From Saprospiraceae bacterium (GTDB taxonomy: Bacteria > Bacteroidota > Bacteroidia > Chitinophagales > Saprospiraceae), in contig JALWSS010000208.1 of NCBI GenBank assembly GCA_026993525.1, positions 1-36,993 of the forward strand: DNA of 36,993 bases, written 5' to 3'. The notes under the pieces were generated by a model. The model worked only from the letters and a program-made list of their open reading frames with translations, had not been told where the DNA came from and ran no database searches. Positions 14,664-36,993 of the stretch are shown here, in pieces. Made by a program: the position numbers and the translations under genes. Numbering within the stretch: position 1 is the first letter of the stretch; every line of letters begins with the position of its first letter.

Positions 14664-15026
14664 GGTTGAGAGGAGTTGAGAGTGGTTGGCGAGAGGGTGT
14701 TCATTAAAGTGTCTCAGCAACTCGGCTTCATTGAATGTGAAAAAATCATTTATACATCCCGGTTCCTGCCTGTGAAAAAGGCCCCAATAACATCAGCCAT
14801 CTTGTAACCCGCTGTTTCCTGCCTCGTCGGCAGACAGGCGACGGGGGGAAGAACCTCGAACCCCCTCGCTGAAGCAAGGGGTTTCAAGATGTTTGATGGA
14901 GTGAAATGCCTTTTGGCCCTCAGGAATTTAACCTGCAACTTCAGGATCAGATCGCTCATGCAATACCCACCGAGCCTGAATGGCGGATTTGTGGGTAATG
15001 GATAGCCCTCTCAACCCCTCTCAACC
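14664..15026. repeat. Gene-free stretch with 19-bp imperfect inverted ends
   Basis: GGTTGAGAGGAGTTGAGAG (14664-14682) is the inverse complement of 15008-15026 with one mismatch; the right copy overlaps the stop codon of the von Willebrand A gene. Inside are GTCGGCAGACAGG (14826-14838), repeated at 36375-36387, and an 8-bp hairpin in the minus-strand reading CCCCTTGC-TTCA-GCGAGGGG near 14863-14882. The whole gene-free interval runs from 14553 to 15020. It could be a small MITE-like element or two low-complexity tracts in opposite orientation. No target duplication was seen. Confidence 0.4.
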
Positions 15027-16139
15027 ATCACGACTGATAAAACGGCCAAAGCGCTGGCCCTTGAAAGCAGCTTCCATCAGGTCCGGAAACTTGTCGGGTG
15101 TGCAGGCAAAGGCGGGGATGTCCATACCTGCCAGCCGGGCAGCCATTTGGTGGTCGTAGGCAGGAGCGCCGGCGTCATCCAGGGCCAGCAGGGAAACGAC
15201 CTGCACTCCGCTCTCTTTCAACTGTGCGGTTCTTCGCAACATTTCATCGCGGTTTCCACCTTCGAAAAGATCGCTGATCAGCACCAGGAAGGTTTTGGCC
15301 GGAGCAGTGACCAGCCTTTCGGCGTAGGCCAGGGCGGAATTGATATCGGTGCCACCGCCAAGCTGCACGCCAAAGAGCATTTCAACGGGATCGTGAAGCT
15401 GGTCGGTGAGATCAGCCACGCTGGTGTCAAAAGCCACAAAATGGGTTTTTACCGAAGGCAAAGAAGCCAGAATGGCCCCGAAAATGCCGGCATAAACCAC
15501 CGAACCGGCCATGGACCCGCTCTGATCCACCAGCAGGACAACATGGCGCAGCGAATGCTGCCGGCGGCCATGTCCGAACATTTGTTCCGGAATGATGGTG
15601 TTGAGGCTGGGCTGGTAGTTTTTCAGGTTGGCCCTGATGGTCCGGTGCCAGTCAATCTCCCGCAATTTGGGCCGGCGGTTGCGGTCGGCACGGTTGAGGC
15701 TGCCCCGAATGGCCTGCTTCAGTGGGTTTTCCAGCCGGCGGCGCAGGTCTTCCACCACCTGGCGAACCACTTGTCTGGCCGTTTCTTTGGTTTTCTCCGG
15801 CATCACCTTGCTGAGTGAAATGAGGGTGGCCACGAGCGACACATCCGGCTCCATCATGCACAGCAGTTCAGGTTCCATCAGCATGCGTTTAAGGTCAAGT
15901 CGCTCCAGGGCATCCTTTTGGATCAACTGCACAACGGACCGGGGAAAGTACTTCCGGATATCGCCCAGCCAGCGGTTGACGTTGGGCGAAGAGCTTCCCA
16001 GCCCCCCCTGCCGCTCGCTGTCGTAAAGCGCCTCGAGGGTGGCATCCATGCCGGCCAGTTGCTCTCCCAGTGAGATTTCATTTTCAGGGTCGGCCTTCCG
16101 GCCAAGGATCATCCGCCATTTTTGCAGGTGGTCTGCCAT
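15021..16139 (-). CDS. von Willebrand factor A domain protein (CoxE/YehP-like)
   Basis: This 372-residue protein has an N-terminal helical region of about 195 residues followed by a VWA domain. The metal-ion-dependent adhesion site is complete: DQSGSM near residue 205, a Thr in GGGTDINSA, and an Asp in ISDLFEGG. There is no signal peptide, so it is cytosolic. Such proteins usually work with a MoxR-type AAA+ ATPase in metal insertion or complex remodelling, but no ATPase gene is in this window. I prefer the ATG at 16139 (MADHLQKWRMILG); one at 16163 would add eight residues. It is divergent from nadB. The end of the gene, GGTTGAGAGGGGTTGAGAGGG, is a short tandem repeat that supplies the TGA stop. 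Confidence 0.88.
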   Translation of the reverse strand: MADHLQKWRMILGRKADPENEISLGEQLAGMDATLEALYDSERQGGLGSSSPNVNRWLGDIRKYFPRSVVQLIQKDALERLDLKRMLMEPELLCMMEPDVSLVATLISLSKVMPEKTKETARQVVRQVVEDLRRRLENPLKQAIRGSLNRADRNRRPKLREIDWHRTIRANLKNYQPSLNTIIPEQMFGHGRRQHSLRHVVLLVDQSGSMAGSVVYAGIFGAILASLPSVKTHFVAFDTSVADLTDQLHDPVEMLFGVQLGGGTDINSALAYAERLVTAPAKTFLVLISDLFEGGNRDEMLRRTAQLKESGVQVVSLLALDDAGAPAYDHQMAARLAGMDIPAFACTPDKFPDLMEAAFKGQRFGRFISRDG

Positions 16140-16206
16140 GCGGCAAAGATAACCGGGGGTCATTTACCCGAAGGGAAAAATGGTGATGGAATAAGGTGCA
16201 GCCCGT

Positions 16207-16214
16207 TACTTTTG
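16207..16214 (+). promoter_or_regulatory. Candidate -7 box for nadB
   Basis: TACTTTTG is a perfect match to TAnnTTTG and lies about 50 bases before the nadB ATG. No TTTG is present at -33, so the call is tentative. Confidence 0.45.
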
Positions 16215-16264
16215 TGCGGCACCGCAATGGCTGCGGGTCTCCTTTTCACGCTCAATTGTTGAAG

Positions 16265-17869
16265 ATGAAAGAAAGCGACATTCTCGTTTTGGGCAGCGGC
16301 ATTGCCGGGCTCACCTTCGCCCTGAAAATGGCCCATGCCAGGCCCGATTTGAAAATAATTGCCCTGAGCAAAACCGCCGACACCGAGAGCAACACGGCCT
16401 ACGCCCAGGGGGGTGTGGCCGCCGTGTGGAACCCCGAAGTTGACAGCTACGAAAAGCACATCAGGGACACCCTCATCGCCGGCGACGGCCTTTGCAAGGA
16501 GGACATTGTAAAGATCGTGGTGCACGAGGGGCCGGAGCGCGTGCGGGAAATCATCGAATGGGGGGCCCGTTTTGACAAAAAAGAAAACCAGAAATACGAC
16601 CTGGGCCGCGAGGGCGGCCACAGCGTGAACCGCATCCTGCACTACAAAGACATCACGGGTTGGGAATTGCAGCGCACCCTGCTGGCACAGGTGGAACACA
16701 CCCCCAACCTGGAGGTGCTGGAGCATTATTTCGCCATTGACCTGATCACGCAGCACCACCTGGGCTACACCATCACCAGGGTAACTCCGGGAATTGAATG
16801 CTACGGCGCTTATGCCCTCAACAAAAAAACCGGCGAGATAGAAACCCTCCTGGCCAAAAGCACCGTGGTGGCTACCGGGGGCGCCGGCCAGGTGTACCGC
16901 AACACCACCAACCCCGTCATTGCCACCGGCGACGGCATCGCCATGATGTACCGGGCCAAAGGACGCATCGAGAACATGGAGTTCGTGCAGTTTCACCCTA
17001 CGGCGCTGTACAACCCACAGGGAGAAAATCCTTCCTTTCTTATTTCTGAAGCGGTTCGTGGCTTCGGCGCCATCCTGAAAACCCCTTCCGGCCAGGAGTT
17101 CATGAAGAAGTACGACGAACGGGGCAGCCTGGCACCCAGAGACATCGTGGCCCGGGCCATAGACCGGGAAATGAAGATACTCGGTGCCGAATACATGTGC
17201 CTGGATTGCCGGCACCTGGACAAAGAGGCCTTCCTGGCCCACTTCCCGAACATCTACGAAAAGTGCCTGTCCATCGGCATTGACCCGATGAAGGACATGA
17301 TCCCGGTAACACCGGCCTGCCACTACATGTGCGGGGGCATCCGCACCGATGAGTGGGGCCGCACTTCTGTCAAAAACCTGTATGCCGCCGGAGAGTGTAC
17401 CTGCACCGGCCTGCACGGCGCCAACCGGCTGGCCTCCAACTCACTGCTCGAGGCCATGGTTTTTGCACACCGCATTTTCCTGGACCTGGAAAAGAAAATT
17501 GACAGCCTGCCCCCCGTCAACAAAAACATCCCGGACTGGAATGCCCAGGGTACCACCGAACCCGAAGAACTGGTGCTCATCGTGCAAAGCCTCAAAGAAC
17601 TGAAAGACCTGATGAGCTATTACGTGGGCATCGTTCGCTCCAATGTCCGTCTGAAAAGAGCCGCCGACAGGCTCTACCTCCTCTACCGGGAAACAGAGGA
17701 ACTTTACACACACACCACCCTGTCTCCCCAACTTTGTGAACTGCGAAACCTCATCACCATCGCCTACCTGGTGACCCGCTCCGCCTCCATGCGAAAGGAA
17801 AGCCGGGGCCTCCACTACACTACCGACTACCCGAACAAACTGCCCTTTCTGGACAAAAGCATTTTGTAG
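16265..17869 (+). CDS. nadB: L-aspartate oxidase
   Basis: This 534-residue flavoprotein oxidises L-aspartate to iminoaspartate, the first step of de novo NAD synthesis. The FAD dinucleotide-binding GSGIAG is near residue 11, followed by SNTAYAQGGVAAVW, the active-site and substrate region REGGHSVNRILH, and GEC-TGLHGANRLASNSLLEA near the FAD end, all typical of NadB and distinguishing it from succinate dehydrogenase by its soluble stand-alone context. I chose the ATG at 16265 (MKESDILVLGSGIAG); an in-frame GTG at 16196 would add a non-conserved 23 residues and precede the likely promoter box. nadA and nadC are not nearby. The stop TAG opens an array of TTGATTTG/TTGAAGTG repeats. Confidence 0.97.
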   Translation: MKESDILVLGSGIAGLTFALKMAHARPDLKIIALSKTADTESNTAYAQGGVAAVWNPEVDSYEKHIRDTLIAGDGLCKEDIVKIVVHEGPERVREIIEWGARFDKKENQKYDLGREGGHSVNRILHYKDITGWELQRTLLAQVEHTPNLEVLEHYFAIDLITQHHLGYTITRVTPGIECYGAYALNKKTGEIETLLAKSTVVATGGAGQVYRNTTNPVIATGDGIAMMYRAKGRIENMEFVQFHPTALYNPQGENPSFLISEAVRGFGAILKTPSGQEFMKKYDERGSLAPRDIVARAIDREMKILGAEYMCLDCRHLDKEAFLAHFPNIYEKCLSIGIDPMKDMIPVTPACHYMCGGIRTDEWGRTSVKNLYAAGECTCTGLHGANRLASNSLLEAMVFAHRIFLDLEKKIDSLPPVNKNIPDWNAQGTTEPEELVLIVQSLKELKDLMSYYVGIVRSNVRLKRAADRLYLLYRETEELYTHTTLSPQLCELRNLITIAYLVTRSASMRKESRGLHYTTDYPNKLPFLDKSIL

Positions 17870-17928
17870 ATTGTTGATTTGTTGATTTGTTGAAGTGTTG
17901 AAGTGTTGAAGTGTTGAAGTGTTGAAGG
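17867..17928 (+). repeat. Octamer array beginning at the nadB stop codon
   Basis: After TTGTAG the sequence runs TTGTTGAT, TTGTTGAT, then about five copies of GTTGAAGT. The stop codon itself fits the unit loosely. Each unit carries a TGA. Confidence 0.8.
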
Positions 17929-17959
17929 GGGGTAGGATCAGACGTTGCGGTGCAGGTTC

Positions 17960-17980
17960 AGACGTTGCGGTGCAACGTCT
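17960..17980 (+). terminator. Perfect hairpin downstream of nadB
   Basis: AGACGTTGC pairs with GCAACGTCT around a 3-base loop. The left arm plus loop (GACGTTGCGGTGCA) is also present as a direct repeat at 17941-17954. There is no T-tract, so it could be a terminator or a fold of unknown role. Confidence 0.45.
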
Positions 17981-18175
17981 CTACTCCCTACTCTCTACTC
18001 TTTAAAACCACAGAGTTGAACAGAGTAACGGTCCCTACTCCCTACACTCTACTCCCTACTCCCTACTCCCTACTCCCTACTCCCTACTCCCTACTCCCTA
18101 CTCCCTACTCCCTACTCCCTACTCCCTACTCCCTACTCCCTACTCCCTACTCCCTACTCCCTACTCCCTACTCCA
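17981..18175. repeat. Heptamer array ACTCCCT, about 17-18 perfect copies
   Basis: Bases 18051-18174 are an uninterrupted run of ACTCCCT units; 17981-18050 hold imperfect copies and a CACAGAGTTGAACAGAG segment. The other strand reads GGGAGTA with a TAG in each unit. The array lies between nadB and the next gene on the same strand. A long open frame over it only encodes a repeated LLPTPYS and is not a gene. Perfect copies suggest recent slippage and likely length variation. Confidence 0.9.
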
Positions 18176-18357
18176 AAAGTCAGGTTTCTGATTTCGCTTC
18201 GCAATGCAAATTCCTGGCAGCGAATTGGAGGTTTTATTAGTTTAAGCCCTGAAACACAGTAAATAGCTGAATTCCGGAACCTGTGAGAATAAGGAATTGG
18301 ATGCGGAAACAGGCAGTTGAAGTCAGGTTTTGGAACGGCACATTTCACACAGGACCC

Positions 18358-19899
18358 ATGCCCAAGACCCCTTCGGATAAACTGTACAAACTCATCAAGT
18401 CGCTGTCGAGTGGGGAGAAGCGCTATTTCAAGATATACATCAACCGAAAGGAAGATTCCAACAGCAAGTACGTGCAGCTCTTCGATGCCATCTACGCACA
18501 GGAGGAATTTGACGACGAGGCACTCCGGCTTGAGATTTACGGAAACGAGCAGGTGGAGGGCCGCAAGTTTTCGGAACTGAAAGCCTACCTCTACCAACTG
18601 GTACTGAAAAGCCTGGAGAGCTACGACGAAAAATCTTCCATTGACTACCGGCTGAAGGGCTACCTGCTGGGTGTGAGAACCCTGTTCCGGCGCTCTTTTT
18701 TTGACGATTGCAAAGACCTGCTGTACAAAGCCAAAAAGGTGGCCACGGAATACGAGCATTTTACCTCCCTGATTGAAATACTGGAATGGGAAAAACGCAT
18801 CGCCTATGCCCAAACGGACATCGCCTGGCTGGACCGGGAACTCAACCGCATTTCTGAAGAAGAAGCTCACTGGGCCAACTGCCTGAGTAATTTCGTGGCT
18901 TACCGGAACCTGTTTTTCAACATGCTGCTCAACGTGCGGAAAGAGGTGTCGAGGAGCCCGGAACAACTGGCCCAAATGCGCAAACTGATGGCACAGCCCC
19001 TGATGCAGGACGAAGCCCAGGCCTTGTCTTTTTCAGCCCGGGTGATGTACCACCGGATCAACTCCATCTACCATTTTACGGCGTCGGAATTCGAGGCCTT
19101 TTACCGCTCCAGCAAGCAACTGGTGGAACTGATGGAAAGCCACCCCCACTTGCTCAAAGAGGATGTATCGGAATACATCTCCGCCCTCAACAACCACATC
19201 ATCAGTTGCGGGCGGCTGCAACGATACGAGGAGGTGGAACAAACCCTCAAAAAGCTGAAAGCCGTGAAGCCCCTGACCAAAGACGACGAGGCCAAAATCC
19301 ACCGCCAGTATTACCAGAACAAGTTCCGGCTTTGCATCAGCAGCGGAGATTTTGACGAAGGGAAAAAGGCGCTGGAAGCGCACCTGCGGGAAGTAGAGAA
19401 ATTTGACCAGGCGCAGTTCAGCAAAGGCAACTTTTACCTGCAATACTTCTGCATTTATTTTGGCTGCGGTGAATACGAAAAAGCCCTGGATGCCCTCAAC
19501 GACTGGCTCAGCCTTTCGGGCAGTGTAGAGCGCAAAGACCTCCAGAGCCTGGCACGCATCCTCAACCTCATCATTCACTACGAGCTGGGAAACAGCCTGC
19601 TGTTGGAGAGCCTGCTGCGCTCCACGTACCGGTACTTGTCACGGGAAAACCGCTTGTCGGAATTTGAGCGGAAGATGATGACCTTCATCCGGGACATGAA
19701 CAAGCCATTGAGGAAGAAAGAGCGGATCGCCTCGTTTGAGGCCGTGAAAGAAGAGTTCGGGCACTTGCGGTCGCAGCCGGCCCACAGCGTTTTCCAGCTG
19801 TTTGATATTGTGTCGTGGATAGAAAGCAAGGTGAGCGGAAAACCCTTCTCTCAGGTGGTGAAAGAAAGGTTTGAGAATGAGCTTCGCAAACGAGGCTGA
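18358..19899 (+). CDS. Large alpha-helical repeat protein of unknown function
   Basis: This 513-residue cytosolic protein starts at MPKTPSDKLYKLIKSLSSGE; an in-frame ATG at 18283 would add 25 residues of poor character. There is no signal peptide or membrane segment. The sequence is almost entirely helical, with TPR-like pairs such as SGDFDEGKKALEAHLREVEK and CGEYEKALDALNDWLSLSG, so it probably acts as a protein-binding scaffold. The N-terminal motif KLIKSLSSGEKRYFKIYI seems to define the family, which I associate with Saprospiria-like genomes without knowing a function. Its stop abuts that of a small convergent gene. Confidence 0.82.
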   Translation: MPKTPSDKLYKLIKSLSSGEKRYFKIYINRKEDSNSKYVQLFDAIYAQEEFDDEALRLEIYGNEQVEGRKFSELKAYLYQLVLKSLESYDEKSSIDYRLKGYLLGVRTLFRRSFFDDCKDLLYKAKKVATEYEHFTSLIEILEWEKRIAYAQTDIAWLDRELNRISEEEAHWANCLSNFVAYRNLFFNMLLNVRKEVSRSPEQLAQMRKLMAQPLMQDEAQALSFSARVMYHRINSIYHFTASEFEAFYRSSKQLVELMESHPHLLKEDVSEYISALNNHIISCGRLQRYEEVEQTLKKLKAVKPLTKDDEAKIHRQYYQNKFRLCISSGDFDEGKKALEAHLREVEKFDQAQFSKGNFYLQYFCIYFGCGEYEKALDALNDWLSLSGSVERKDLQSLARILNLIIHYELGNSLLLESLLRSTYRYLSRENRLSEFERKMMTFIRDMNKPLRKKERIASFEAVKEEFGHLRSQPAHSVFQLFDIVSWIESKVSGKPFSQVVKERFENELRKRG

Positions 19900-19905
19900 T
19901 CAGCC
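19894..19905. other. Palindrome GGCTGATCAGCC carrying both stop codons of convergent genes
   Basis: The plus-strand gene stops with TGA at 19897-19899 and the minus-strand gene stops with TCA (TGA) at 19900-19902. The two stop codons form the centre of a perfect 12-base palindrome with no spacer. Confidence 0.7.
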
Positions 19906-20115
19906 GCCGTACTTCAATTTGGTATTGAGCAAGCTGAAGCTGGCAGTGGGCTGGGGAGTGAAGCCTTCGTTGCGGATGTCCACGTCGTCCCAGTTGATGT
20001 AGCCGTATGAACCACTGGTGGAAGGGATGTAGTTGCGGCCGCCTTTTGCTTTAAGGGCCTCATTGCGATCGAGGGCCTGGCTGCGAAAATCTTTAAGTGT
20101 CAACTTCTTTTTCAT
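19900..20115 (-). CDS. Small 71-residue peptide of unknown function
   Basis: The frame begins MKKKLTLKDFRSQALDRNEA, a basic, helix-prone leader-like segment, and continues into a Ser/Thr/Gly/Asn/Asp-rich part (STSGSYGYINWDDVD) ending LKYGG. It has no cysteine, no signal peptide and no membrane segment. The MKKK-LTL-DF opening recalls leader regions of Bacteroidota peptide precursors, but no modification enzyme, ABC exporter or protease gene is adjacent, so a RiPP role is speculative. The start at 20115 is chosen over a longer frame (20292) because of the MKKKLTL start. Bases 20116-20329 upstream show no second gene. Confidence 0.6.
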   Translation of the reverse strand: MKKKLTLKDFRSQALDRNEALKAKGGRNYIPSTSGSYGYINWDDVDIRNEGFTPQPTASFSLLNTKLKYGG

Positions 20116-20329
20116 ACTGCAAACGTTTTGCGGGTTCTGTACAAAAAGGCGATTTCTCACCCAGCTTAAAATTACGGTGGGGTTGCATGCAGGAGCAGCC
20201 AAAATAAATGATAAGTCAGAATGCTGATCATGCACACACCTGAAAGTTCGCTTGCGAAGATAACCAAAAAACGCTCCCGGTACCAATCCCAATTGTCAGG
20301 CGAACAACTCCAGGCGCAAATAATGCCCG

Positions 20330-22627
20330 TCACTTACTTTCCACAACCACCAGCTTACCGGCAGGCCTGCCATTGAACAATACCAAATACAAGCCGGGAT
20401 ACCAACCCGAAACATCCAGGGCAATTGATCCGGACAGGGCAACCCTGACCACGGGTCGTCCGGTCAGGTCGGTGATCAGGAGCGCTCCGTTTGGTGTGTT
20501 TTTCGTCGAAAAAATGACCTGGCTGCCGGCTGGGTTGGGGTAATAGGTCAGCATTTCCAGCGGGGCTTCCCGGGTGGGGGTTGCGCAGGCCGCATCGTTG
20601 CCGGAGGCGAAGGAAGGCTCATTGGTGCTGAAGGGGCCGGTACCGTTGGGGCAACGGGAGAATGCAATGTCTTCGGCCAGGGGGGGGAAAACCACCTCGT
20701 CGGCCACCTGAAGGTTGGGGTTGAGCAGTTGCAGTTGCTCTCCGCCGGCAGAGAGTTTGAACGAAGCGTGCAGGCCGGCCTGGCCGGTATCGTTGTCAGC
20801 CCAGACGACGAGGTAGGCGCCGGGGTCGAGGAACACGCCATTTGGGAAGGTCCATTTGGCGGGCAGCAGGGGGTCATCGGTCAGGTGCCAGCCGCTGAGG
20901 TCAATGGTTTGTGAGCTGTTGTTGTAGAGTTCTATCCAGTCGTCGTACTCGCCGTCCTGGTCGGCGACGGTGCTGTTGTTTCTGGCCATCAGTTCATTGA
21001 TCACCACGTTGGCAGCCGTTGAAAGGGAGTAGTACACATGGGCCGCCTTTTCCGGCAGGAATTGTCCGGCCAGGTCATTTTCGGCATAGAAAAAGTACTG
21101 CCCGCCACCGGCGTTCACCGGCAGCACCACCCCGTAAACCAGGTCACCGGCAGCGCCGTCGCCGTGCAGTCCGTCGTCGGAAAGCTGGTAGTATTTGAAT
21201 ACCTCTTTGACATTGGATCGGAAACCCAGCCAGACGTCGGCGGCCTCGTCCAGTTCCACCGTGAACACGGCGTTTTCTCCGGGGGCGGGCACTGCCGGGC
21301 TGTGGCCCGGGTTGCTCAGTGTTGGGGGCTGGTATTGCCATTCGGGCAGGGATTGTAGCCAGGCCACCCGCCCGTCCATCAGTTCCAGCAAGCCGTAGGC
21401 ATCGTAGCCATCGTAGCTGTCCACCACCGCAGTGGTGAGGTTGTCTTCAAAATCCTGAAAACTGTAGAGGTTGTTGGGGTCGCTTTGCAGCTCGTCGGAA
21501 ATGAAATCCTGCAACTGACCGGCCCTGTTTTCCAGCCAGCCGGAGGAGACCAGTTCCTGCACCATGGTGCGGTAGTGGGCCAGGTACATCCGGCGCCAGG
21601 TTGCCTGGCCCAGCAGTGCCTGCAGCAAGGGCTTTTGCGGGTCGTCTTCTCCCTGCCAGGGACTCAGTTGCTGAAAAAAGCTGAGCGGGGGCTGGGCGCC
21701 GGCAGCGGCATCCACATCCACCCAGGGGTATTTGGCGAAGGACTCGTTGAGGTCATCCGGTACCGGCACGAAACGGCCGTCAGCGGTGGAGCCCAGGTAG
21801 TAATTGCGGGCGCCGGCTCCCAGATAGCTGTCGAGGTTCACGAACAGGTTGTTGAACACCGACCACCACAGCATGCGGTCGAGGTCAAAGTATTGGTCGG
21901 TGGCGGCGGGGTTGTTGGCAAGGGTCTGTGCGGCAGCGATGAGGGCTTCCCAGCCGGTGTTTGACTGCATTTCGTAATGATCGAAATAACAGGCAACGCC
22001 GGGCCCCAGGTATTCCAGGGATGCCCCATGCCCCACCGAGCAGCCAAAAGGCGGGTTTTGCGGAACGGCGTCAAAATCATACGAAGGGTTGCATTCAAAG
22101 CGCGGGGCATCGGGATCGAGCTGGAGCGCTCTTTCAAAGAAGCTTGCGTTGATGCTTTCCACGTTGGCGTACAGGCCGTGGTAAGCACCGTTGACGAACA
22201 CCCTGGCGTAATTGGCACGAGGGGCTTCCATGAATTGCCGTGCGGCCTCCAGCGACAATACCTCCCTGAGAAAGGAGGGGTCTTTGGCCCCGTTGGAGAG
22301 TTTGAGCACTTCGATGCCTTCGTAATCCTGGTTTTTTACATGGTCCAGCTTGATGTTGAGGGGGTTCTTGGGGTTGTCGGGATGGTAGGTGCCTCCGCCC
22401 CGGTAGCGCACCCCCACGCTGTCGAAACTGACGCCGTTGATCTCCACGGTGGCCAGCAGGCGCTCGCCGTTGCCGGCGGCGTAGTAATTGTCCAGGATGG
22501 CGTCCCAGTTGCTTTGCTCAAAATTGATTTCTATCGTCGCAATGACGAGCGGGCTGTAGAGGGGTTGCGAAGCGAGTTGCGAAGCGAAGAAAAAGAAGAT
22601 GAAGATGCAGGGGTACAGGCGGCTCAT
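20330..22627 (-). CDS. CotH kinase-family protein with lamin-tail domain and T9SS sorting signal
   Basis: This 765-residue secreted protein has a signal peptide (MSRLYPCIFIFFFFASQLAS). Residues about 30-400 form a CotH domain, seen from VRYRGGGTYH, IKLDHVKNQDYEG and GLYANVESINASFFERAL; CotH proteins are atypical kinases that phosphorylate surface proteins in spore-formers. Near residue 540 a lamin-tail domain begins (VVINELMARNNS, DDWIELYNNSSQTIDLSGWH). The last 75 or so residues are a type A T9SS sorting domain (YYPNPAGSQVIF, ITDLTGRPV, GWYPGLYLVLF). It is therefore probably exported by T9SS and attached to the surface. Starts at 22627 and 22639 are both possible; a longer frame would overlap the divergent gene's promoter. 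Confidence 0.92.
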   Translation of the reverse strand: MSRLYPCIFIFFFFASQLASQPLYSPLVIATIEINFEQSNWDAILDNYYAAGNGERLLATVEINGVSFDSVGVRYRGGGTYHPDNPKNPLNIKLDHVKNQDYEGIEVLKLSNGAKDPSFLREVLSLEAARQFMEAPRANYARVFVNGAYHGLYANVESINASFFERALQLDPDAPRFECNPSYDFDAVPQNPPFGCSVGHGASLEYLGPGVACYFDHYEMQSNTGWEALIAAAQTLANNPAATDQYFDLDRMLWWSVFNNLFVNLDSYLGAGARNYYLGSTADGRFVPVPDDLNESFAKYPWVDVDAAAGAQPPLSFFQQLSPWQGEDDPQKPLLQALLGQATWRRMYLAHYRTMVQELVSSGWLENRAGQLQDFISDELQSDPNNLYSFQDFEDNLTTAVVDSYDGYDAYGLLELMDGRVAWLQSLPEWQYQPPTLSNPGHSPAVPAPGENAVFTVELDEAADVWLGFRSNVKEVFKYYQLSDDGLHGDGAAGDLVYGVVLPVNAGGGQYFFYAENDLAGQFLPEKAAHVYYSLSTAANVVINELMARNNSTVADQDGEYDDWIELYNNSSQTIDLSGWHLTDDPLLPAKWTFPNGVFLDPGAYLVVWADNDTGQAGLHASFKLSAGGEQLQLLNPNLQVADEVVFPPLAEDIAFSRCPNGTGPFSTNEPSFASGNDAACATPTREAPLEMLTYYPNPAGSQVIFSTKNTPNGALLITDLTGRPVVRVALSGSIALDVSGWYPGLYLVLFNGRPAGKLVVVESK

Positions 22628-22645
22628 AGTGGTCGGCATTTTGGC

Positions 22646-22653
22646 CAAAGGTA
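22646..22653 (-). promoter_or_regulatory. Candidate -7 box for the CotH gene
   Basis: On the minus strand this reads TACCTTTG, a perfect TAnnTTTG, about 19 bases before the ATG at 22627. It would give a very short leader. No TTTG is present at -33. Confidence 0.35.
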
Positions 22654-22762
22654 GGCATAGGCCCGCTGCATTTTTTCGAAAAAGCGCCAAAAGCCACGCC
22701 GCGACAAAGGCCGGTGAACCGAAAGCACCCGCAGAATGCCTGCCAGTGCCGGCAGTTTGCAG

Positions 22763-22770
22763 TACCTTTG
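22763..22770 (+). promoter_or_regulatory. Candidate -7 box for the duplicated-motif membrane protein
   Basis: TACCTTTG, a perfect TAnnTTTG, lies about 88 bases before the ATG at 22859. The -33 element is not recognisable. Confidence 0.4.
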
Positions 22771-22858
22771 CCGCCGCTTTTGCAAAACGGTAGCAAGGGA
22801 GAGGAAGCCATCGGGCATTTTGCGAAGCGAAACCACTAATAAACAACCACTTAGAGTC

Positions 22859-23719: not shown

Positions 23720-24175
23720 ATGCACAGGATATCCAGCAACTGGACCTTGTTTCTGAAAATCTTCCTGCCCACCTTCTGGATGGTGTTCTTCGGGGCCCTC
23801 ACCATCGGCCTTTGGATGGTGAACACACCCTACTTCGGCAACATCCCGGCCATGCCCTTCAAACTCGGTATGACCGTTTTTTTTCTCGCCGGAACGGCCG
23901 GCCTGTACTTCACCCTCATGCAATTGCTGCGCGTTGACCTGGACGAAAAACACCTCTTCGTAAGCAACTACTTCAAGACCTACCGCTACCCTTTCACGGA
24001 CATTGAAAACATCGTTGAACGCGACATCGGATTCTTCCACCTGGTACGCATCCAGCTCAAAGGCAAAGGCCGTTTTGGCTCCCGAATCAGTTTCCTCCTC
24101 GACGATTCCATGCTCCGGGCTTTCTTGCAAAAACACCCGGAAACAGCCGCCCAACTGCCCTTTGTGAGGAAGTGA
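23720..24175 (+). CDS. Small membrane protein, two transmembrane helices, unknown function
   Basis: This 151-residue protein has two hydrophobic helices (LFLKIFLPTFWMVFFGALTI and LGMTVFFLAGTAGLYFTLMQ) followed by a cytosolic part of about 85 residues with alternating beta-like segments (HLFVSNYFKTYRYPFTDIEN, VRIQLKGKGRFGSRISFLL), resembling a PH-like or bacterial PH-domain protein. It follows the polytopic membrane gene by 30 bases, so a shared operon is likely. Its last codons, GTGAGGAAGTGA, belong to the tandem array that continues downstream, so the ending VRK may come from the repeat. Confidence 0.75.
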   Translation: MHRISSNWTLFLKIFLPTFWMVFFGALTIGLWMVNTPYFGNIPAMPFKLGMTVFFLAGTAGLYFTLMQLLRVDLDEKHLFVSNYFKTYRYPFTDIENIVERDIGFFHLVRIQLKGKGRFGSRISFLLDDSMLRAFLQKHPETAAQLPFVRK

Positions 24176-24300
24176 GGAAGTGAGGAATTGAGGAATTGAG
24201 GAACTGAGGAACTGAGGAACTGAGCCTGTCCGGCCCGTCTGGCCGCCGGACAGGCTGGCGCCAGGCCAGACGGGGAACTGAGGAACTGAGGAAGTGAGGT
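24164..24300 (+). repeat. GAGGAACTGAGG-type array overlapping the gene end
   Basis: Units of 8-9 bases (TGAGGAAG, TGAGGAAT, TGAGGAAC) run from inside the last codons to 24223 and resume at 24275-24298. Between them, CCTGTCCGG and CCGGACAGG (about 24225-24254) form a hairpin, followed by a CTGGCGCCAG palindrome. No gene is seen from 24176 to 24579. Confidence 0.8.
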
Positions 24301-24579: not shown

Positions 24580-26472
24580 ATGAATTACCTGACACTTGAA
24601 AACGTAGCCCGCAGTTATGGGGACAAAGTGTTGTTCAAGAACGTGAATCTCCGGATTAACAAAGGGGAGAAGGCCGCCCTCATTGCGAAGAACGGCTCCG
24701 GTAAAACCACCTTGCTCAAAGTGATTGCCGGTGAAGAACCCAGCGACGGGGATACCAGCAAGGTCATGTTGCGAAGCGAAATAAGGGTGGGATACCTGCC
24801 ACAAGAGCCGGAATTATACCCCGGCCACAACGTGCTGGAAGCTGCTTTCGACAGCGACAACCCCACCATCCGGGCCATCCGGGAATACGAACTGGCTCTG
24901 CTCCATCCCGACCGGGAAGAGGCCATGCAAAATGCCCTGGCAAAAATGGACGACCTCAAAGCCTGGGACTTCGAAGCCCGCATCAAGGAAATCCTCTTCA
25001 AACTGAACCTGACAGACCTGGAGCAATCCGTCGCCACCCTCTCCGGTGGTCAGCAAAAACGCCTGGCCCTGGCCAAACTGCTCATCGATTCCGATAGCTA
25101 TCAGAACGAATTCCTCATCCTGGACGAGCCCACCAACCACCTCGACCTGGACATGATCGAATGGCTGGAGGAATACCTCAAGTGCCCCAACCTGACCCTC
25201 TTCATGGTAACCCACGACCGCTACTTCATGGAGCGCATCTGCAACACCATCTACGAACTGGACCGGGGCACAGTGTACAAGTACACCGGGGGCTACGCCG
25301 ATTTCCTGGTGAAAAAAGCCATGCGCCAGGAAAACGAGGCCGCCGTGCTGGACAAAACCAAAAAACTCTACCGGAAAGAACTCGACTGGATGCGGCGATC
25401 CCCACAGGCCCGCACCACCAAGGCCCAGGCCCGCATAGATCGCTTCTTCGAAATTGAAGACAAAGCCTCCCAAAAGCCCGACACCGACGAACTGAAGATA
25501 GAAATCCAGGGCCAACGCCTCGGCAGCAAGATCCTGGAGCTGCAATACATCAGCAAAGCTTACGGCGATCTGAAGATCATCGAGGATTTCCATTACAAAT
25601 TCAAAAAAGGTGAGCGGGTCGGCATCGTCGGAAAAAACGGCGCCGGCAAAACCACCTTCCTCCGCCTGCTGACTGGCGAGGAAAAGCCCGATCGTGGCAA
25701 AATCGTCACCGGCGAAACAGTGGTCTTCGGCTATTACACCCAGGATGGCCTGCAGGTGATGGAAAACCAGGACAAAAGGGTCATTGATTTCATCCGGGAC
25801 ATCGCCGAATACATCCCCCTGGACAAAGGCCGCAAACTGACCGCCGCCCAACTGCTCGAACGCTTCCTCTTCTCCCGTGAGCAACAGCAGGTTTACGTCT
25901 CACAACTCAGCGGCGGGGAGCGCCGCCGGCTCTACCTACTGAGCATCCTCATGCAAAACCCCAATTTCCTCATCCTGGATGAGCCCACCAACGACCTCGA
26001 CGTCATCACCCTCAACGTATTGGAAGAATGGCTGCTGGAATACCCCGGCTGCCTGGTGGTGGTCAGCCACGACCGCTTTCTGCTGGACAAATTGTGCGAC
26101 CACCTCTTCGTCTTCCAGGGCAACGGCAAGGTCAAAGACTTCAACGGCCGATACATGGAGTACCGCAAATGGGTGCAGGAACAGGAAAAAATACAACGGG
26201 AAAAAACCAACGCAAACACTGCCAAATCGCCCAAACAAGAGGTCAGAACCGGCACCGGCCTCACCAAACAACAGAAAAACGAGCTGAAAAAACTGGAACG
26301 GGAAATCGCCGAACTGGAAAAACGCAAAACCGAACTCCACGAGGCTTTCACCCAAACCGACCTCGGCCTGGAAAAAATCCAACAACTCTCCAACGAACTC
26401 AAAGAAGTAGAAACCAACCTCGAAAAAAAAGAACTCCGCTGGATGGAACTGGCAGAGTTGATTCAGGAATGA
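24580..26472 (+). CDS. ABC-F family ATPase, Uup-like
   Basis: This 630-residue protein has two ABC ATPase domains and no membrane domain, the ABC-F arrangement; members act on the ribosome and modulate translation. Domain 1 has Walker A AKNGSGKTT (about 36-44), signature LSGGQQKRLALAK and Walker B LILDEPTNHLDLD. Domain 2 has Walker A GKNGAGKTT (about 350), signature LSGGERRRLYLL (about 442) and LILDEPTNDLDV (about 463). The interdomain linker contains TKAQARIDRFFEIE. The last 75 residues are a charged coiled coil (KKLEREIAELEKRK), as in Uup, so a Uup-like role in ribosome or DNA-structure tolerance is likelier than antibiotic resistance. Its stop codon lies in a GAATGAGG/GGGATGAGG repeat. Confidence 0.95.
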   Translation: MNYLTLENVARSYGDKVLFKNVNLRINKGEKAALIAKNGSGKTTLLKVIAGEEPSDGDTSKVMLRSEIRVGYLPQEPELYPGHNVLEAAFDSDNPTIRAIREYELALLHPDREEAMQNALAKMDDLKAWDFEARIKEILFKLNLTDLEQSVATLSGGQQKRLALAKLLIDSDSYQNEFLILDEPTNHLDLDMIEWLEEYLKCPNLTLFMVTHDRYFMERICNTIYELDRGTVYKYTGGYADFLVKKAMRQENEAAVLDKTKKLYRKELDWMRRSPQARTTKAQARIDRFFEIEDKASQKPDTDELKIEIQGQRLGSKILELQYISKAYGDLKIIEDFHYKFKKGERVGIVGKNGAGKTTFLRLLTGEEKPDRGKIVTGETVVFGYYTQDGLQVMENQDKRVIDFIRDIAEYIPLDKGRKLTAAQLLERFLFSREQQQVYVSQLSGGERRRLYLLSILMQNPNFLILDEPTNDLDVITLNVLEEWLLEYPGCLVVVSHDRFLLDKLCDHLFVFQGNGKVKDFNGRYMEYRKWVQEQEKIQREKTNANTAKSPKQEVRTGTGLTKQQKNELKKLEREIAELEKRKTELHEAFTQTDLGLEKIQQLSNELKEVETNLEKKELRWMELAELIQE

Positions 26473-26616
26473 GGAATAAGGGATGAGGGATGAAAGGGCT
26501 TCGATGTTTGTTTCGGAGGAATTCTCGGTTCTTCAGTTCTTCGATTCTTCAATTCCTCTCCCGACGAATGTCGGGATCAGTTCCTCAATTCTTCAAATCC
26601 TCGATTCCTCGCATCC
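26465..26616. repeat. Array and palindrome between convergent ABC-F and gatA genes
   Basis: On the plus strand GGAATGAGGAATAAGGGATGAGGGATGA-like units start at the ABC-F stop (26470-26472). On the minus strand GAGGAAGTGAGGATGCGAGG-like units start at the gatA stop (26617-26619). Between them is CCCGACGAATGTCGGG (26560-26575). Confidence 0.8.
26556..26579 (+). repeat. Left arm of a 24-bp perfect inverted repeat around gatA
   Basis: Contains the palindrome-like core CCCGACGAATGTCGGG. The whole 24 bases are the exact inverse complement of 28112-28135 on the other side of gatA. Confidence 0.85.
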
Positions 26617-28053
26617 TCACTTCCTCAAATCCTCAACCGCCTCCAGCAACGCTGCATCCTTCCCTTTGCCGGCCATGAGCTGAATGCCCACGGGCAGCCC
26701 CTCCGGGTGGGTGCCGATGGGGAAGGCGATGGCCGGCAGGCCACAGAGGTTGGCCAGCACGGTGTAGATATCCGAGAGGTACATTTTGACGGGGTCAGAG
26801 CTGAGCTCACCCAATTTCGGAGCGGTTTCGGGGGTGGCCGGCATGGCCAGCAGGTCGCAGTCGTTCAGGATTTCTTCCACTCGCTGCGCAATGAGGCGGC
26901 GGGCCTTCTGGGCTTTGGCGTAGTAGGCGTCGTAAAAGCCGGCGCTCAGCACAAAAGTGCCCAGCATGATGCGGCGCTTCACCTCCCTGCCGAAACCTTC
27001 GGTGCGGGAAAGCTTGAACACCTCTTCAACATTTCCTGCCTGCTCGCTGCGGTGGCCGTAGCGCACGCCGTCGTAGCGGCTGAGGTTGGTGCTGGCCTCG
27101 GCGGTGGTGAGTACGTAGTAGGCCGGGATGAGAAAGTCGAGGTAGTCGAAATGAACCGGTACGAGTTGATGACCCAGCTCCTCCAGCCCCTTCAGGTAGT
27201 CCTCGGTTATTTGCCGGATGGCAGGGTCGAGGCCCGGGTGTGTGAGCGTTTCTTCGATAAAGGCGATCTTCCTGGGATCAGGCTTGCCCTCCCATTGCGA
27301 CGAAAAAGAAAAAACCGGTGGCGGGTGTGGCAGGGCGGTGGCATCGTATTCGTCCGGGCCCGCCACCACGCTGAGCACCCTGGCAATATCTTCGGGGCTT
27401 CGCCCCAAAATTCCGATCTGATCGAAGCTGGAAGCATAGGCGATGAGCCCGTGGCGGGAGATGCGGCCGTAGGTGGGCTTGAAACCCATGACCCCGCAAA
27501 AGGCAGCCGGCTGGCGCACGGAGCCCCCCGTGTCGCTGCCGATGGAGATGAGGCAAGTGTCGGTCTGCACCGCCACTGCCGATCCACCGGAGCTGCCCCC
27601 CGGCACCCGTTCGGGGTCAGCGGCATTGAGGGTGGGGCCGTGGGCAGAGTTTTCGGTGGTGCTGCCCATGGCAAATTCATCGCAATTCACCCGGCCGATG
27701 ATGATGGCATCTTCGGCCAGCAAGCGCTCCACCACCGTGGCAGAGTACAGCGATTCAAAGCCCCCCAGCATTTTGGACGCCGCACTGATCCTGTGCCCCT
27801 CGTAACAGATCACGTCTTTGATGGAGACCACCAATCCGAAGAGTTTGCCGACAGCCGCAGGGTCGGTCCGGTACTTTTCATCAAGTTCCCTCGCCCGGGC
27901 GATGGCCTCTTCAGAAAAGACCTCCACCCAGGCATTCAGGTGCCCGCTGGCGGCAATGTTTCCGAGGTAGTGCTCCACCAGAATGGAGCAGTTGGTCTGC
28001 CTGGCGGCAATGGCTTCCTGAACGGCCTGCAGTGAATGGTATTTCGGACTCAT
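26617..28053 (-). CDS. gatA: Asp-tRNA(Asn)/Glu-tRNA(Gln) amidotransferase subunit A
   Basis: GatA is the amidase subunit of GatCAB, which frees ammonia from glutamine to amidate mischarged Asp-tRNA(Asn) or Glu-tRNA(Gln). The amidase-signature triad is visible: Lys in VSIKDVICYEG near residue 78, cis-Ser in GGSSGGSAVAVQTD near 152 and nucleophile Ser in GSDTGGSVRQPA near 176. From MSPKYHSLQAVQEAI at 28053 it is 478 residues, normal for GatA; an ATG at 28071 would add six. gatB and gatC are elsewhere, as is common in Bacteroidota. The gene is bracketed by a 24-bp inverted repeat and G-rich arrays, and its last codons (DLRK) have the same bases as the repeat that follows. Confidence 0.95.
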   Translation of the reverse strand: MSPKYHSLQAVQEAIAARQTNCSILVEHYLGNIAASGHLNAWVEVFSEEAIARARELDEKYRTDPAAVGKLFGLVVSIKDVICYEGHRISAASKMLGGFESLYSATVVERLLAEDAIIIGRVNCDEFAMGSTTENSAHGPTLNAADPERVPGGSSGGSAVAVQTDTCLISIGSDTGGSVRQPAAFCGVMGFKPTYGRISRHGLIAYASSFDQIGILGRSPEDIARVLSVVAGPDEYDATALPHPPPVFSFSSQWEGKPDPRKIAFIEETLTHPGLDPAIRQITEDYLKGLEELGHQLVPVHFDYLDFLIPAYYVLTTAEASTNLSRYDGVRYGHRSEQAGNVEEVFKLSRTEGFGREVKRRIMLGTFVLSAGFYDAYYAKAQKARRLIAQRVEEILNDCDLLAMPATPETAPKLGELSSDPVKMYLSDIYTVLANLCGLPAIAFPIGTHPEGLPVGIQLMAGKGKDAALLEAVEDLRK

Positions 28054-28089: not shown

Positions 28090-28320
28090 GGATCGGAGGA
28101 GGAATGAGGGATGATCCCGACATTCGTCGGGAGAGGGATGAGGAGTGAGGAGTGAGGGATGAGGAATGAGGGATGAGGGATGAGGGATGAGGGATGAGGG
28201 ATGCCCCGTGCCGATACCGAAAGCTTTCGGTACCGGCATCGGGGAAGGGATGAAAGTGCTAACCCTCTCTACTCTCTACTCCCTACTCCCTAATCAGGAA
28301 TGGGAGCTAGCGCTTCCAAA
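28090..28320. repeat. GGGATGA array with two palindromes upstream of gatA
   Basis: Units of GGGATGA/GGAGTGA run from about 28094 to 28204. Inside is the right arm of the gatA inverted repeat (28112-28135). Next comes a long hairpin centred on AAGCTT: perfect 18-base palindrome 28215-28232 with outer CCCCG (28204) and CGGGG (28244). Then a short CTCTCTACTCCCTACTCCC tract at 28265-28290. No gene is seen from 28072 to 28320. Confidence 0.8.
28112..28135 (-). repeat. Right arm of the 24-bp perfect inverted repeat around gatA
   Basis: Exact inverse complement of 26556-26579, with core CCCGACATTCGTCGGG at 28116-28131. Confidence 0.85.
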
Positions 28321-28357
28321 CCCTACACCCTAAACCCTAAACCCTAAACCCTACACC
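28321..28357 (-). repeat. TTTAGGG array starting at the RidA stop codon
   Basis: On the minus strand GTGTAGGG is followed by three TTTAGGG units and TGTAGGG. The RidA stop TAG (28351-28353) is the first TAG of the array. The unit equals a plant telomere repeat by coincidence. Confidence 0.85.
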
Positions 28358-29965: not shown

Positions 29966-29977
29966 TGACCAAGAGGG

Positions 29978-30736
29978 TTAGAGCGGTCTGATTTTGATGT
30001 TTTTGAACCTGACCTCGTGCTGGTGATCCTGCAGGCCTATGTGCCCGGGAGTGGTTTTGCCGTAATCCTGATATTCCGCAAACTTGGAGGCTTTCACCCG
30101 GGCCTTCCACGCTTCAGACCCCACCTGGTATTCAATGCACTTGTTGCCGTTGAGCCAGTGCTCTACATGACCATTTTTGTGAACGATGCGCCCGTGATTC
30201 CATTCGCTCAGTGGTTTGAGGTAAAAATCGGGAGCGGCCTGAAGGTCGTAATTGTCGCAGGTGCAATGCGTTGTGAGGTCAAAATCCGGGTGGGTTTTAG
30301 CATAGGCCTCGTGGTCCAGTATCTGGTATTCCGGCGCATTGGCCCACATGGGCAGGGTGCTGTCTTCTTTCACAAAATAGAAGACACCGCTGTTGGCCAT
30401 TGCTGATATTTTGAAATCAAAGACCAACTCGAAATTGCCGAATTTCTCTTTGGTAATGATGTCACCGCCGAAGTCTTCCGGTTTCGGGTCGGGTGTTGCC
30501 AGGATGACCATTTCACCGTTTTCGACGACCCAGCCATTTTTGGGAAGGTCGGGCCGGTTGTATCCACGCCAGTTGTCCATGGATTTTCCATCGAACAGCA
30601 AGGTCCAGTCTTCAGCTGTTTCTTCCGGTGCGGGCACGTTGTCTTTGGCAAGGTCAGTTTGGTCCGCATTTGTTGCGGGTGATTCACCGCATGATGACAA
30701 CATTGCGAAAGCGATGAGCAGGAGAAGTGGTTTCAT
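29978..30736 (-). CDS. DUF1080 (3-keto-disaccharide hydrolase-like) lipoprotein
   Basis: This 252-residue protein starts MKPLLLLIAFAMLSSCGES, an SPII lipoprotein signal with Cys near residue 16. The body is a concanavalin-like DUF1080 domain: WTLLFDGKSMDNWRGY, GWVVENGEMVI, GNFELVFDFKISAMANSGVF and the C-terminal HIGLQDHQHEVRFKNIKI are all typical. Some members cleave 3-keto-glycosides, which fits the oxidoreductase next door. It would act in the envelope. An ATG three codons upstream (30745) is possible. It appears to be the first gene of a three-gene operon, directly after the frr terminator. Confidence 0.92.
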   Translation of the reverse strand: MKPLLLLIAFAMLSSCGESPATNADQTDLAKDNVPAPEETAEDWTLLFDGKSMDNWRGYNRPDLPKNGWVVENGEMVILATPDPKPEDFGGDIITKEKFGNFELVFDFKISAMANSGVFYFVKEDSTLPMWANAPEYQILDHEAYAKTHPDFDLTTHCTCDNYDLQAAPDFYLKPLSEWNHGRIVHKNGHVEHWLNGNKCIEYQVGSEAWKARVKASKFAEYQDYGKTTPGHIGLQDHQHEVRFKNIKIRPL

Positions 30737-36014: not shown

Positions 36015-36072
36015 TTAGGGTTTTTATTGAAGGTTTTTGTGAGGTTTTTAAGAGGTTTTTGCCCATGGGCCA
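36012..36072 (+). repeat. AGGTTTTT units starting at the rodA stop codon
   Basis: After GGATTTGATTAGGG come four spaced copies of AGG-TTTTT (GGTTTTTATTGA, GGTTTTTGTGA, GGTTTTTAAGA, GGTTTTTGCC), resembling the GGTTTTTGA array at 3335-3385. Confidence 0.7.
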
Positions 36073-36085
36073 TATTCTGCCAAAT

Positions 36086-36184: not shown

Positions 36185-36218
36185 ACGTTTACTAAACCTT
36201 TGGAGGTTTAGTAAACGT
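36185..36218. repeat. Perfect 15-bp hairpin in the rodA downstream region
   Basis: ACGTTTACTAAACCT (36185-36199) pairs exactly with AGGTTTAGTAAACGT (36204-36218) around TTGG. It is followed by no T-tract, and flanked by GGGGAC on the left and GTCCCC at about 36230 on the right. Either a terminator fold or a mobile/regulatory element. Confidence 0.65.
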
Positions 36219-36235
36219 GGGTTAAACGACGTCCC

Positions 36236-36280
36236 CCGTCCCTGCAAGCATTGGGTAAATTGGCACTTGCTACCCCCATC
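36236..36280. repeat. Dispersed element, copy C (TGCAA-N14-GGCACTTGC)
   Basis: TGCAA at 36243-36247 and GGCACTTGC at 36262-36270, same 14-base interval. The rest of the gene-free stretch to 36449 holds GAGTTCCTCAGTTCCTC tracts, GTCGGCAGACAGG (36375-36387) and a hairpin TGCCGAT/ATCGGCA at 36418-36435 inside CCCC/GGGG. Confidence 0.6.
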
Positions 36281-36449
36281 TCCAACGCTGGCAGGGTTCC
36301 AAACCCTCCTTAATTCCTCAAAAAGGGCGAAGCCCGATCAATTCCTCCCTGCCTGCCTGCCCGGCGGCAGACGGGTCGGCAGACAGGAGTTCCTCAGTTC
36401 CTCAGTTCCTCCCCCGATGCCGATTATTATCGGCACGGGGCTCATTTCC

Positions 36450-36993
36450 TCACTCCACCACTACCTTGAAAAAGCCATAGCCTTCCAGATGGCCAAAGTA
36501 CACCCCCCCTGCCCAACCCGACACATCGAAAAACAACTGCCGCTCCCCGGCCCGGCTGAGCGTGCGGTACACCTCCCGGCCCAGGGCATCATACAACACC
36601 AAACGAACGGGGCGGGCCGGTGGCTGCGGCAGCTCCACGGCCACACCGGAGCGGGCGGGGTTGGGCCAGACCTTGATGGCGGGGGCCTGCGGGCCAGTTT
36701 CTTCTGTGGCATTGGGAGCATCTACGGTGACTTCCCGGCAGAAGGTGTCGCTGTCGTATTCATTGCTGACGGTGAGGCAGACCAGGTAGGTGCCCGGTTC
36801 GTCGTATTTGTGCAGGGGGTCTTTGAGGGTGCTGGTGCTGCCGTCACCGAAGGCCCAGAGCCAGTCGGTGGGCTCGTAGAAGCTGTTGTCGGTGAAGATG
36901 ACCCGCAGGCTGTTGCTGCTGTCTATGGCATGGCGGAAGCCGGCCAGCGGATGGTTGTCCAGCCCCAGCGTGTCGCAGGGAGAGCCGTCGAGG
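36450..36993 (-). CDS. PKD-domain protein with T9SS C-terminal sorting domain (partial at window edge)
   Basis: The minus-strand frame is open from the right edge to a TGA at 36450-36452; the start is beyond the window. The first readable residues (LDGSPCDTLGLDNHP) belong to an unknown upstream part. A PKD-like domain follows, with DWLWAFGDGSTSTLKDP and HKYDEPGTYLVCLTVSNEYD. After VTVDAPNATEE a type A T9SS sorting domain starts, with IKVWPNPARSG, VLYDALGREVYR and SGWAGGVYFGHL, ending FFKVVVE. The protein is therefore expected to be secreted through the type IX system and fixed to the surface. The stop is followed by a GGAGTGAGGAAATGAG-like repeat. Confidence 0.9.
   Translation of the reverse strand, partial: LDGSPCDTLGLDNHPLAGFRHAIDSSNSLRVIFTDNSFYEPTDWLWAFGDGSTSTLKDPLHKYDEPGTYLVCLTVSNEYDSDTFCREVTVDAPNATEETGPQAPAIKVWPNPARSGVAVELPQPPARPVRLVLYDALGREVYRTLSRAGERQLFFDVSGWAGGVYFGHLEGYGFFKVVVE

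Follow-up and report, generated by a model that had tools for sequence, protein, structure and literature searches.

The STRR sequences of Calothrix and Nostoc are dispersed 7-bp tandem repeats in spacers, and by this description they are comparable to the short tandem arrays analysed here, which lie at gene ends in a window of 36,993 nucleotides (the whole stretch of DNA studied, C208:1-36993, contig JALWSS010000208.1) from the metagenome-assembled genome (MAG) of a Saprospiraceae bacterium. A sequence-only reading of this window had claimed that at least seven of its genes end directly in an array whose unit carries a stop codon. The closest described system is that of Rehm et al. 2015 (PMC4692102), who report the G-rich heptamers GGGAATC and GGGGA(C/T)T in Xanthomonas and Nostoc, sense-oriented within 50 bp of a stop or antisense-oriented upstream of starts, and leave their function open. 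The arrays of our genome resemble these repeats in being intergenic and spread genome-wide, in overlapping stops, in their scarcity between divergent genes, in sites that are often common to relatives, and in showing the same polarity at stops (sense) and starts (antisense). They differ from them in comprising many units (mostly 7, 8, 9 and 10 bp), in containing GGG in just 157 of 423 arrays, so that most lack the three-G tracts of a G-quadruplex, in their Bacteroidota host, and in several shared sites at which the unit differs between relatives. A second description, MacGregor 2015 (PMC4679880), concerns TAACTGA direct repeats in Beggiatoaceae, some cyanobacteria and five Bacteroidetes. According to that paper, these are likewise heptamer arrays in intergenic DNA that carry stops in every frame and in some cases overlap with the stop of the preceding gene, whereas those of the orange Guaymas strain consist of one unit and lie mostly just upstream of starts, which are not enriched here. 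TAACTGA was absent among the leading units listed below, although no dedicated search for it was made, and the best-ranked matches in the open literature contained no account of such arrays in Saprospiraceae. Polarity, stop overlap and divergent scarcity are thus already known from Xanthomonas and Nostoc (PMC4692102), to which the present case contributes a third phylum, many units and arrays without GGG.

The host genome (G000) comprises 5,156,449 bases in 230 contigs, of which 1,006,136 bases were examined, the first batch amounting to 689 kb. For comparison, we used 379 kb sampled from an array-rich sister species (G004) and two further relatives, the outgroup G007 and G012. The nadB product of the window has its closest matches in Saprospiraceae and in Bacteroidota MAGs. 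Arrays were identified with our own periodicity detector (period 5–14, count threshold 11), so "no array" means none above the detector threshold, and TRF was also run on the window. Genes were predicted by our own Markov caller, which gives approximate starts, misses small genes and is under-trained on 80-kb samples. The strand of each unit with more G than C was defined as its G-rich strand. Because contigs C9, C19, C26, C30, C35 and part of the second batch were chosen from contigs with matches to the TGAGGAAN pattern, and the stretches of the sister species around orthologs of stop-abutting genes, the array densities in both genomes are biased upward. The main tests were repeated on a control set of 260 kb of host contigs chosen without regard to repeats.

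Location and polarity of the arrays

The anchoring of arrays at the stop side of genes is real, but it represents one side of a wider pattern. The 689 kb contained 191 intergenic and 10 coding arrays at threshold 12, against none in one spacer shuffle, and the 1.0 Mb yielded 315 intergenic versus 37 coding arrays at a laxer threshold, which is the spacer concentration typical of repeats of the Rehm type. In the 689 kb, 37 of 204 array-to-stop distances were at most 10 nt, compared to 8.6 expected from uniform placement, while the starts stayed flat (7 of 208 distances vs. 6.1 expected). The null model placed each array inside its own spacer and disallowed overlap with a gene, and therefore overstates the stop excess, the bulk of which consists of 24 arrays touching or overlapping the stop. 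The repeat-blind contigs gave the same picture (stops 14 vs. 3.5 expected; starts 2 vs. 2.7 expected), and in the window itself our detector found five arrays within 10 nt of a stop (0.7 expected). Arrays thus lie near stops more often than expected for their spacers, with no such excess at starts, so the proposal of the sequence-only reading passes the refutation test that it had set itself. An array within 10 nt of the stop was present in just 53 of 610 genes. In the host, arrays were held by 49% of the tail-to-tail, 31% of the tandem and 19% of the head-to-head spacers, and the densities were 2.02 arrays per kb of tail-to-tail, 1.97 of tandem and 1.10 of divergent spacer (2.12, 2.13 and 0.73, respectively, in the sister species).

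The stronger rule concerns polarity: on the start side of genes as well as on the stop side, the C-poor, G-rich strand of the arrays leads away from the nearest gene. Up to 60 nt from that gene, the G-rich strand pointed outward in 138 of 143 arrays of the host and 65 of 74 of the sister species, as well as in 37 of 41 arrays of the repeat-blind contigs, and spacers with a single array obeyed the rule just the same (33/34 in the host, 23/26 in the sister). The G-rich strand was the sense strand within 30 nt of stops (71:3 in the host, 44:5 in the sister, 115:8 pooled) and the antisense strand within 30 nt of starts (21:0 and 11:4, pooled 32/36). Head-to-head spacers showed outward polarity up to 60 nt (10:0 in the host, 3:0 in the sister). 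In the host, this applied to all four gene arrangements, and the polarity was kept at 31–60 nt past stops (mean sign 0.83, n=35).

The sign of the G-C skew of the unit predicts the polarity, whereas that of the A-T skew does not. Up to 30 nt past stops, with overlaps included and both genomes combined, sense orientation prevailed in units whose longest G-run was one (22:3), two (57:2) or GGG (36:3). At 1–30 nt past stops, the rule was followed by units without any stop codon (8:1, from few arrays) and by those that have stops on the C-rich strand alone (8:0), the latter reversing where they overlapped a stop (0:2). Counted up to 60 nt from the nearest gene end, units lacking GGG gave a ratio of 94:4 in the host, and those lacking G-runs 27:3. 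The stopless units reached 15:0 in the host and 4:1 in the sister, and the units whose stops are confined to the C-rich strand 11:3 and 5:2, respectively. Therefore, neither G-quadruplexes nor stop codons are needed for the polarity past stops, and we rejected both as an insufficient cause there; near starts, the relevant classes are too small to say, the stopless units within 30 nt giving 0:1 (sense:antisense) in both genomes together. In the array-free leaders of each of the seven genomes sampled, C exceeded G on the sense strand over the first 30 nt, which can explain the start-side polarity at short range.

Stop positions, conservation and spread in related genomes

The sequence-only reading had taken the units to differ between sites, with no common repeat among them, but we found unit families that recur genome-wide. 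Three copies of TGAGGAAN with up to 2 mismatches gave 892 overlapping matches in the host and none for the reversed control. The same search yielded 138 matches in the sister species, 7 and 6 in two further species of the genus, none in the remaining ten genomes of the genus and 9 in a single one of 26 genomes outside it. The leading units among the 315 intergenic arrays of the host were AGGGATG (31), AACTGAGG (25), AGGGAGT (22) and AGGGTGT (18). The sampled part of the sister contained 108 intergenic arrays, and five other members of the genus had 1, 2, 4, 6 and 8 per 80 kb.

We compared stop positions via the trailing gaps of alignments. A match in the sister species was obtained for 36 of 37 stop-abutting genes, and the stop occurred at the identical residue in 29 of these 36, two of which (L009:8230 and C30:34614) carry an internal gap near the end. 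Among 166 orthologs, an array was present at the stop in both species in 17 cases, in the host only in 23, in the sister only in 13 and in neither in 113 (odds ratio 6.4, p 2e-5). The trailing ends agreed at all 17 shared sites, although the proteins at one of them differ internally by 4 residues next to the end, and several of these sites have unlike units, e.g. TCGGTTG vs. GGGATTATG or TGAGGAAC vs. AGGGATG. Compared to the outgroup G007, the stop was unmoved in 10 of 11 genes with arrays 1–10 nt past it, but only in 8 of 21 with overlapping arrays (10/11 vs. 6/17 with stricter matching, p 0.006); the corresponding values for G012 were 4/4 and 4/14. Arrays present only in the host were associated with a displaced stop in 9 of 14 cases when overlapping it, versus 1 of 9 when starting 1–12 nt past it. 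The conclusion that overlapping arrays set the stops is weakened by the displacement also seen in control genes without an array within 100 nt (18/115 vs. 5/22 overlapped stops against the sister, p 0.53; 13/31 vs. 11/17 against G007, p 0.23). Some C-terminal tails are nevertheless encoded by arrays, namely GVGSRE in three genes and VGSRE in a fourth (L002:18572, C30:29160, C30:30000, C30:34614), with GSRE, found in 6 of 610 genes, being the most frequent C-terminal tetrapeptide. Both situations therefore occur: some arrays rewrite the C-terminus into (G)VGSRE tails, and others adjoin an old stop.

The suggestion that arrays grow by slippage out of the stop-codon context fared unevenly. It agrees with the stop at C9:9946, where TGAATTGTTGA is common to host and sister, but not with C35:72112, where the stop codon changed together with the unit (TGA with TGAGGAA-type units in the host, TAG in the sister, TAA in G007). 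In the array-poor G007, arrays of other units (GTGAGAGA-like and AATGATG-like) were observed at the stops orthologous to C9:9946 and L010:9679, perhaps of independent origin.

Regarding conservation, the identity between host and sister was 0.50 over the first 10 nt past stops (n=77) and 0.78 over the first 10 nt before starts (n=92), with a baseline of 0.22–0.24 for unrelated pairs. This lower identity past stops suggests that turnover reaches the stop codon and stays off the leaders.

Proposed explanation and its alternatives

For the observed location and polarity of the arrays, their differences from the sister genome, their restriction to one lineage among the genomes sampled and the conservation contrast, we favour with moderate confidence the explanation that they constitute a lineage-specific, fast-turnover spacer filler of the slippage type, which ends where constraint begins and is subject to an outward-polarity filter at both gene ends, rather than a 3′ element. 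Such filler arrays would be drawn from a limited set of units, mostly of 7–10 bp with one strand nearly free of C, and presumably grow by slippage. They would reach the stop codons because constraint on the sequence ceases at that point, with conservation falling from the first base past the stop, whereas leaders and promoters would hold array turnover away from starts. An array lying over a stop would often supply the stop codon at an unchanged residue and sometimes alter the protein length by a few residues. A second filter, for which purifying selection is the probable source, would act at both gene ends, with the G-rich strand of nearly all arrays directed outward up to a distance of some 60 nt, or some 30 nt in the case of the sister's stops. 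At the 5′ end, this polarity would match the general shortage of G in the leaders of the genus; at the 3′ end, it may reflect selection on the transcript end or a promotion of array growth by outward transcription.

Several observations weigh against this explanation. In simulations of random invasion, a tolerance of about 60 nt (about 20 codons) was needed to produce the 35 overlaps seen, which then predicted 10% unmoved stops, as opposed to the 17 of 22 (sister) and 6 of 17 (G007) found; this points to some attraction to stops beyond plain filler. The polarity of the sister was lost at 31–60 nt past stops (mean sign −0.25, n=12) and faded generally beyond 30 nt (0:4 at 31–60 nt in tail-to-tail spacers, 8:8 at 31–100 nt before starts). 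Its units without G-runs showed little polarity within 60 nt (12:6), and such units gave 3:3 within 30 nt of starts in both genomes combined. Array-free sequence past stops has a weak and uneven outward G skew, which is even negative in one genome (G006), leaving the 3′ filter without independent support. Finally, because the stretches of the sister were picked around stop-abutting genes, we repeated the identity test without genes having an array within 100 nt, and the contrast shrank to 0.60 (n=34) vs. 0.78 (n=77); it is genuine but smaller than it first seemed, which slightly lowered our confidence in the explanation.

A broader proposition would be a general law of bacterial spacer repeats, by which arrays near genes, in three phyla and with unrelated units, are C-poor in the outward direction independently of G-quadruplexes and stop codons, as the result of a directional process that starts at the gene ends, for instance array growth driven by transcription out of the gene; we consider this rather unlikely. 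Less likely again is the specific alternative that outward transcription drives the growth of the present arrays. R-loops form where the non-template strand is G-rich and favour expansion, and they would arise from RNA leaving the gene, either by 3′ read-through or as divergent antisense RNA at the 5′ end, with the result that chiefly arrays with an outward G-rich strand would grow. This would provide a single rule for both ends and all four gene arrangements of the host, and it is in line with a polarity that is set by G-C skew and in the host is not tied to G-runs or stop codons. However, antisense transcription at starts is an assumption, and the arrays showed no gradient of age in the direction of the G strand (51 vs. 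51 in the host, 12 vs. 24 in the sister), so that directional growth inside the arrays was dismissed, the sister showing a weak opposite tendency (p 0.07).

We attach the same low probability to selection bias alone, i.e. a random invasion of gene ends by arrays in which the first in-frame array stop becomes the gene stop, a caveat that the sequence-only reading had raised itself. The caveat is partly borne out by the four array-coded (G)VGSRE tails and the frequency of GSRE, by the displaced stops at overlapping host-only arrays and by the outgroup comparison, where overlapping arrays go with moved stops and arrays 1–10 nt past the stop with unmoved ones. It does not carry the whole pattern, since far more stops were unmoved than the simulation predicts, overlapped stops were not significantly more displaced than those of array-free genes, and the polarity at 1–60 nt and at starts is left unexplained.

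A functional 3′ element, acting by back-up stops, by decoupling of neighbouring genes or by defining mRNA 3′ ends, appears slightly less probable still. It would agree with the enrichment and sense polarity at stops, with the high frequency of arrays in tail-to-tail spacers and with the positions shared with the sister species, and Rehm et al. 2015 (PMC4692102) state that Xanthomonas transcripts start or stop more often at G-quadruplex-capable than at control repeats. The same paper describes this effect as independent of which strand is transcribed, and arrays adjoin the stops of only a small part of the genes, while the sister lacks a detected array at 23 of the 40 array-at-stop sites. The back-up stop zone advanced by the sequence-only reading is not needed for the polarity, as the few stopless units and those with stops only on the opposite strand comply with it past stops, though the latter do not when overlapping them. 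An mRNA 3′-end element does not fit, because the outward polarity is the same upstream of starts and in head-to-head spacers.

Very improbable is a mobile hairpin element whose arms are the arrays, which would make both gene-facing ends alike: adjacent inverted pairs around a CTAG-containing core do occur (16/67 in the host, 3/24 in the sister), but the polarity of single-array spacers largely refutes it, and the arms of a pair share their unit in only 1 of 67 cases (3.6 expected by shuffling, not significant).

Four further candidates were rejected. A telomerase-like or retroelement origin was discarded because RVT_1 domains numbered zero in the host, which is reported as 100% complete, and one in the sister, while 6 of 12 other genomes of the genus carry one or two. 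A loss of mismatch repair is contradicted by mutS1 genes above the cut-off and without internal stop in both array-rich genomes. A bloom of REP transposases does not apply, as several relatives poor in arrays have more Y1_Tnp domains than the host (2) or the sister (1). The idea that selection acts against the deletion of genes lying between direct copies was dropped because, among genes with arrays on both flanks, direct pairs were not depleted (21 of 44 in the host, 8 of 19 in the sister), the same-unit pairs being too few to judge.

Arrays of the window

The following arrays were recorded in the window, the first three by TRF.

3335..3386, plus strand: TTTTTGAGG x5.7, located some 49 nt upstream of the start called for gene 1877-3286 (minus strand), G-rich strand outward
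3586..3631, minus strand: TAGGGAG x6.6, some 59 nt away from the stop of gene 3691-6327 (minus strand), G-rich strand outward
14645..14688, plus strand: GTTGAGAGAG x4.4, 92 nt past the stop of gene 13614-14552 (plus strand)
15006..15026, minus strand: GGTTGAGAGG x2.1, overlapping the VWA_CoxE stop (Pfam; gene 15021-16163, minus strand)
17872..17927, plus strand: TGTTGAAG x7, beginning directly after the nadB stop TAG (17867-17869)
17978..18174, minus strand: GTAGAGA x3.4 and GTAGGGA x20, towards the following gene (plus strand, start called at 18301) and in inverted orientation to the array beside nadB
24165..24299, plus strand: TGAGGAAN x7.5, overlapping the stop of a small membrane gene 23720-24175 (plus strand), interrupted by a palindrome at about 24226-24273
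26465..26493, plus strand: AGGAATG/AGGGATG, about 4 imperfect copies, overlapping the ABC-F stop (gene 24580-26472, plus strand)
26577..26636, minus strand: degenerate TGAGGAAN, overlapping the stop of a gatA-like amidase gene 26617-28071 (minus strand; Pfam Amidase)
28129..28203, plus strand: GAGGAAT/GAGGGAT x10, at the side of the gatA start, its G-rich strand leading outward
28265..28292, minus strand: TAGGGAG x4, on the RidA side of the gatA/RidA spacer
28318..28357, minus strand: TTTAGGG/TGTAGGG x5.7, overlapping the RidA stop (gene 28351-28770, minus strand)
36017..36061, plus strand: degenerate GGTTTTTGAGA-type, past the rodA stop (36014), TRF period 11 with 75-80% matches
36388..36411, minus strand: TGAGGAAC x3, about 40-60 nt beyond the stop (36450) of a protein sorted by the type IX secretion system (T9SS; Pfam PKD, Por_Secre_tail)

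The claimed stop-bearing arrays were thus present in part, five of the eight named sites being clear. Arrays overlap the stops of the VWA, small membrane, ABC-F and RidA genes, while no array was detectable at the T9SS stop itself, and rodA is a weak case, at whose stop our detector found no array even at threshold 6. The gatA array is degenerate (76% matches in TRF) and scored 10, just under the counting threshold. An array is indeed found at nadB, but the gene's TAG precedes it and hence is not the array's first stop codon.

The nadB stop residue is identical in the sister, G007 and G012. That of VWA_CoxE is the same in the sister and shifted by 1–2 residues in G007 and G012, and that of ABC-F is the same in the sister and three residues earlier in the other two relatives. 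The ortholog in the sister is five residues longer for the small membrane gene and one residue longer for RidA, where no array was detected at its stop; the ortholog of gene 13614-14552 has a GGGTGTA array 2 nt past its stop. TTTAGGG at the RidA stop is also the plant telomere repeat unit, which we take to be a coincidence.

The spacer between nadB and the next gene contains TGTTGAAG outward on the plus strand and TAGGGAG outward on the minus strand, and the ABC-F/gatA and gatA/RidA spacers are laid out in the same way, with arrays directed outward from both sides. A composite of an AGGGATG array, a palindromic GCTAGC/CTAG core and an inverted AGGGTGT/AGGGAGT array was observed at window positions 28203-28292 and elsewhere in the host (C35:24088-24600, C150:23028, C1:18733), where GCTAGC occurs at 0.095 per kb in spacers (20 sites) vs. 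0.004 in genes (3 sites). Short palindromes such as TCCCGAC-ATTC-GTCGGGA break arrays at 24226-24273, around 28113-28133 and 28204-28244 and at other loci, and the unit may resume beyond them. The window contained no known RNA families at gathering score and no tRNAs, and a promoter and terminator scan of positions 14500-30000 gave nothing clearly above shuffled sequences.

Eight host contigs (C9, C12, C41, C49, C51, C68, C75 and C78) have arrays within a few hundred bases of their first base, suggesting that arrays break the assembly. Gene ends as well as contig ends in MAGs of this clade appear to be shaped by repeats. The polarity itself has been published for G-quadruplex repeats and was read in that light (PMC4692102). 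Its presence in a third phylum, and past stops also in arrays without GGG and in a few stopless ones, weakens explanations by G-quadruplexes or stop codons and opens the cause to testing. With many sites in common with the host but partly other units, the sister species represents a ready system for studying the gain, loss and turnover of such arrays.

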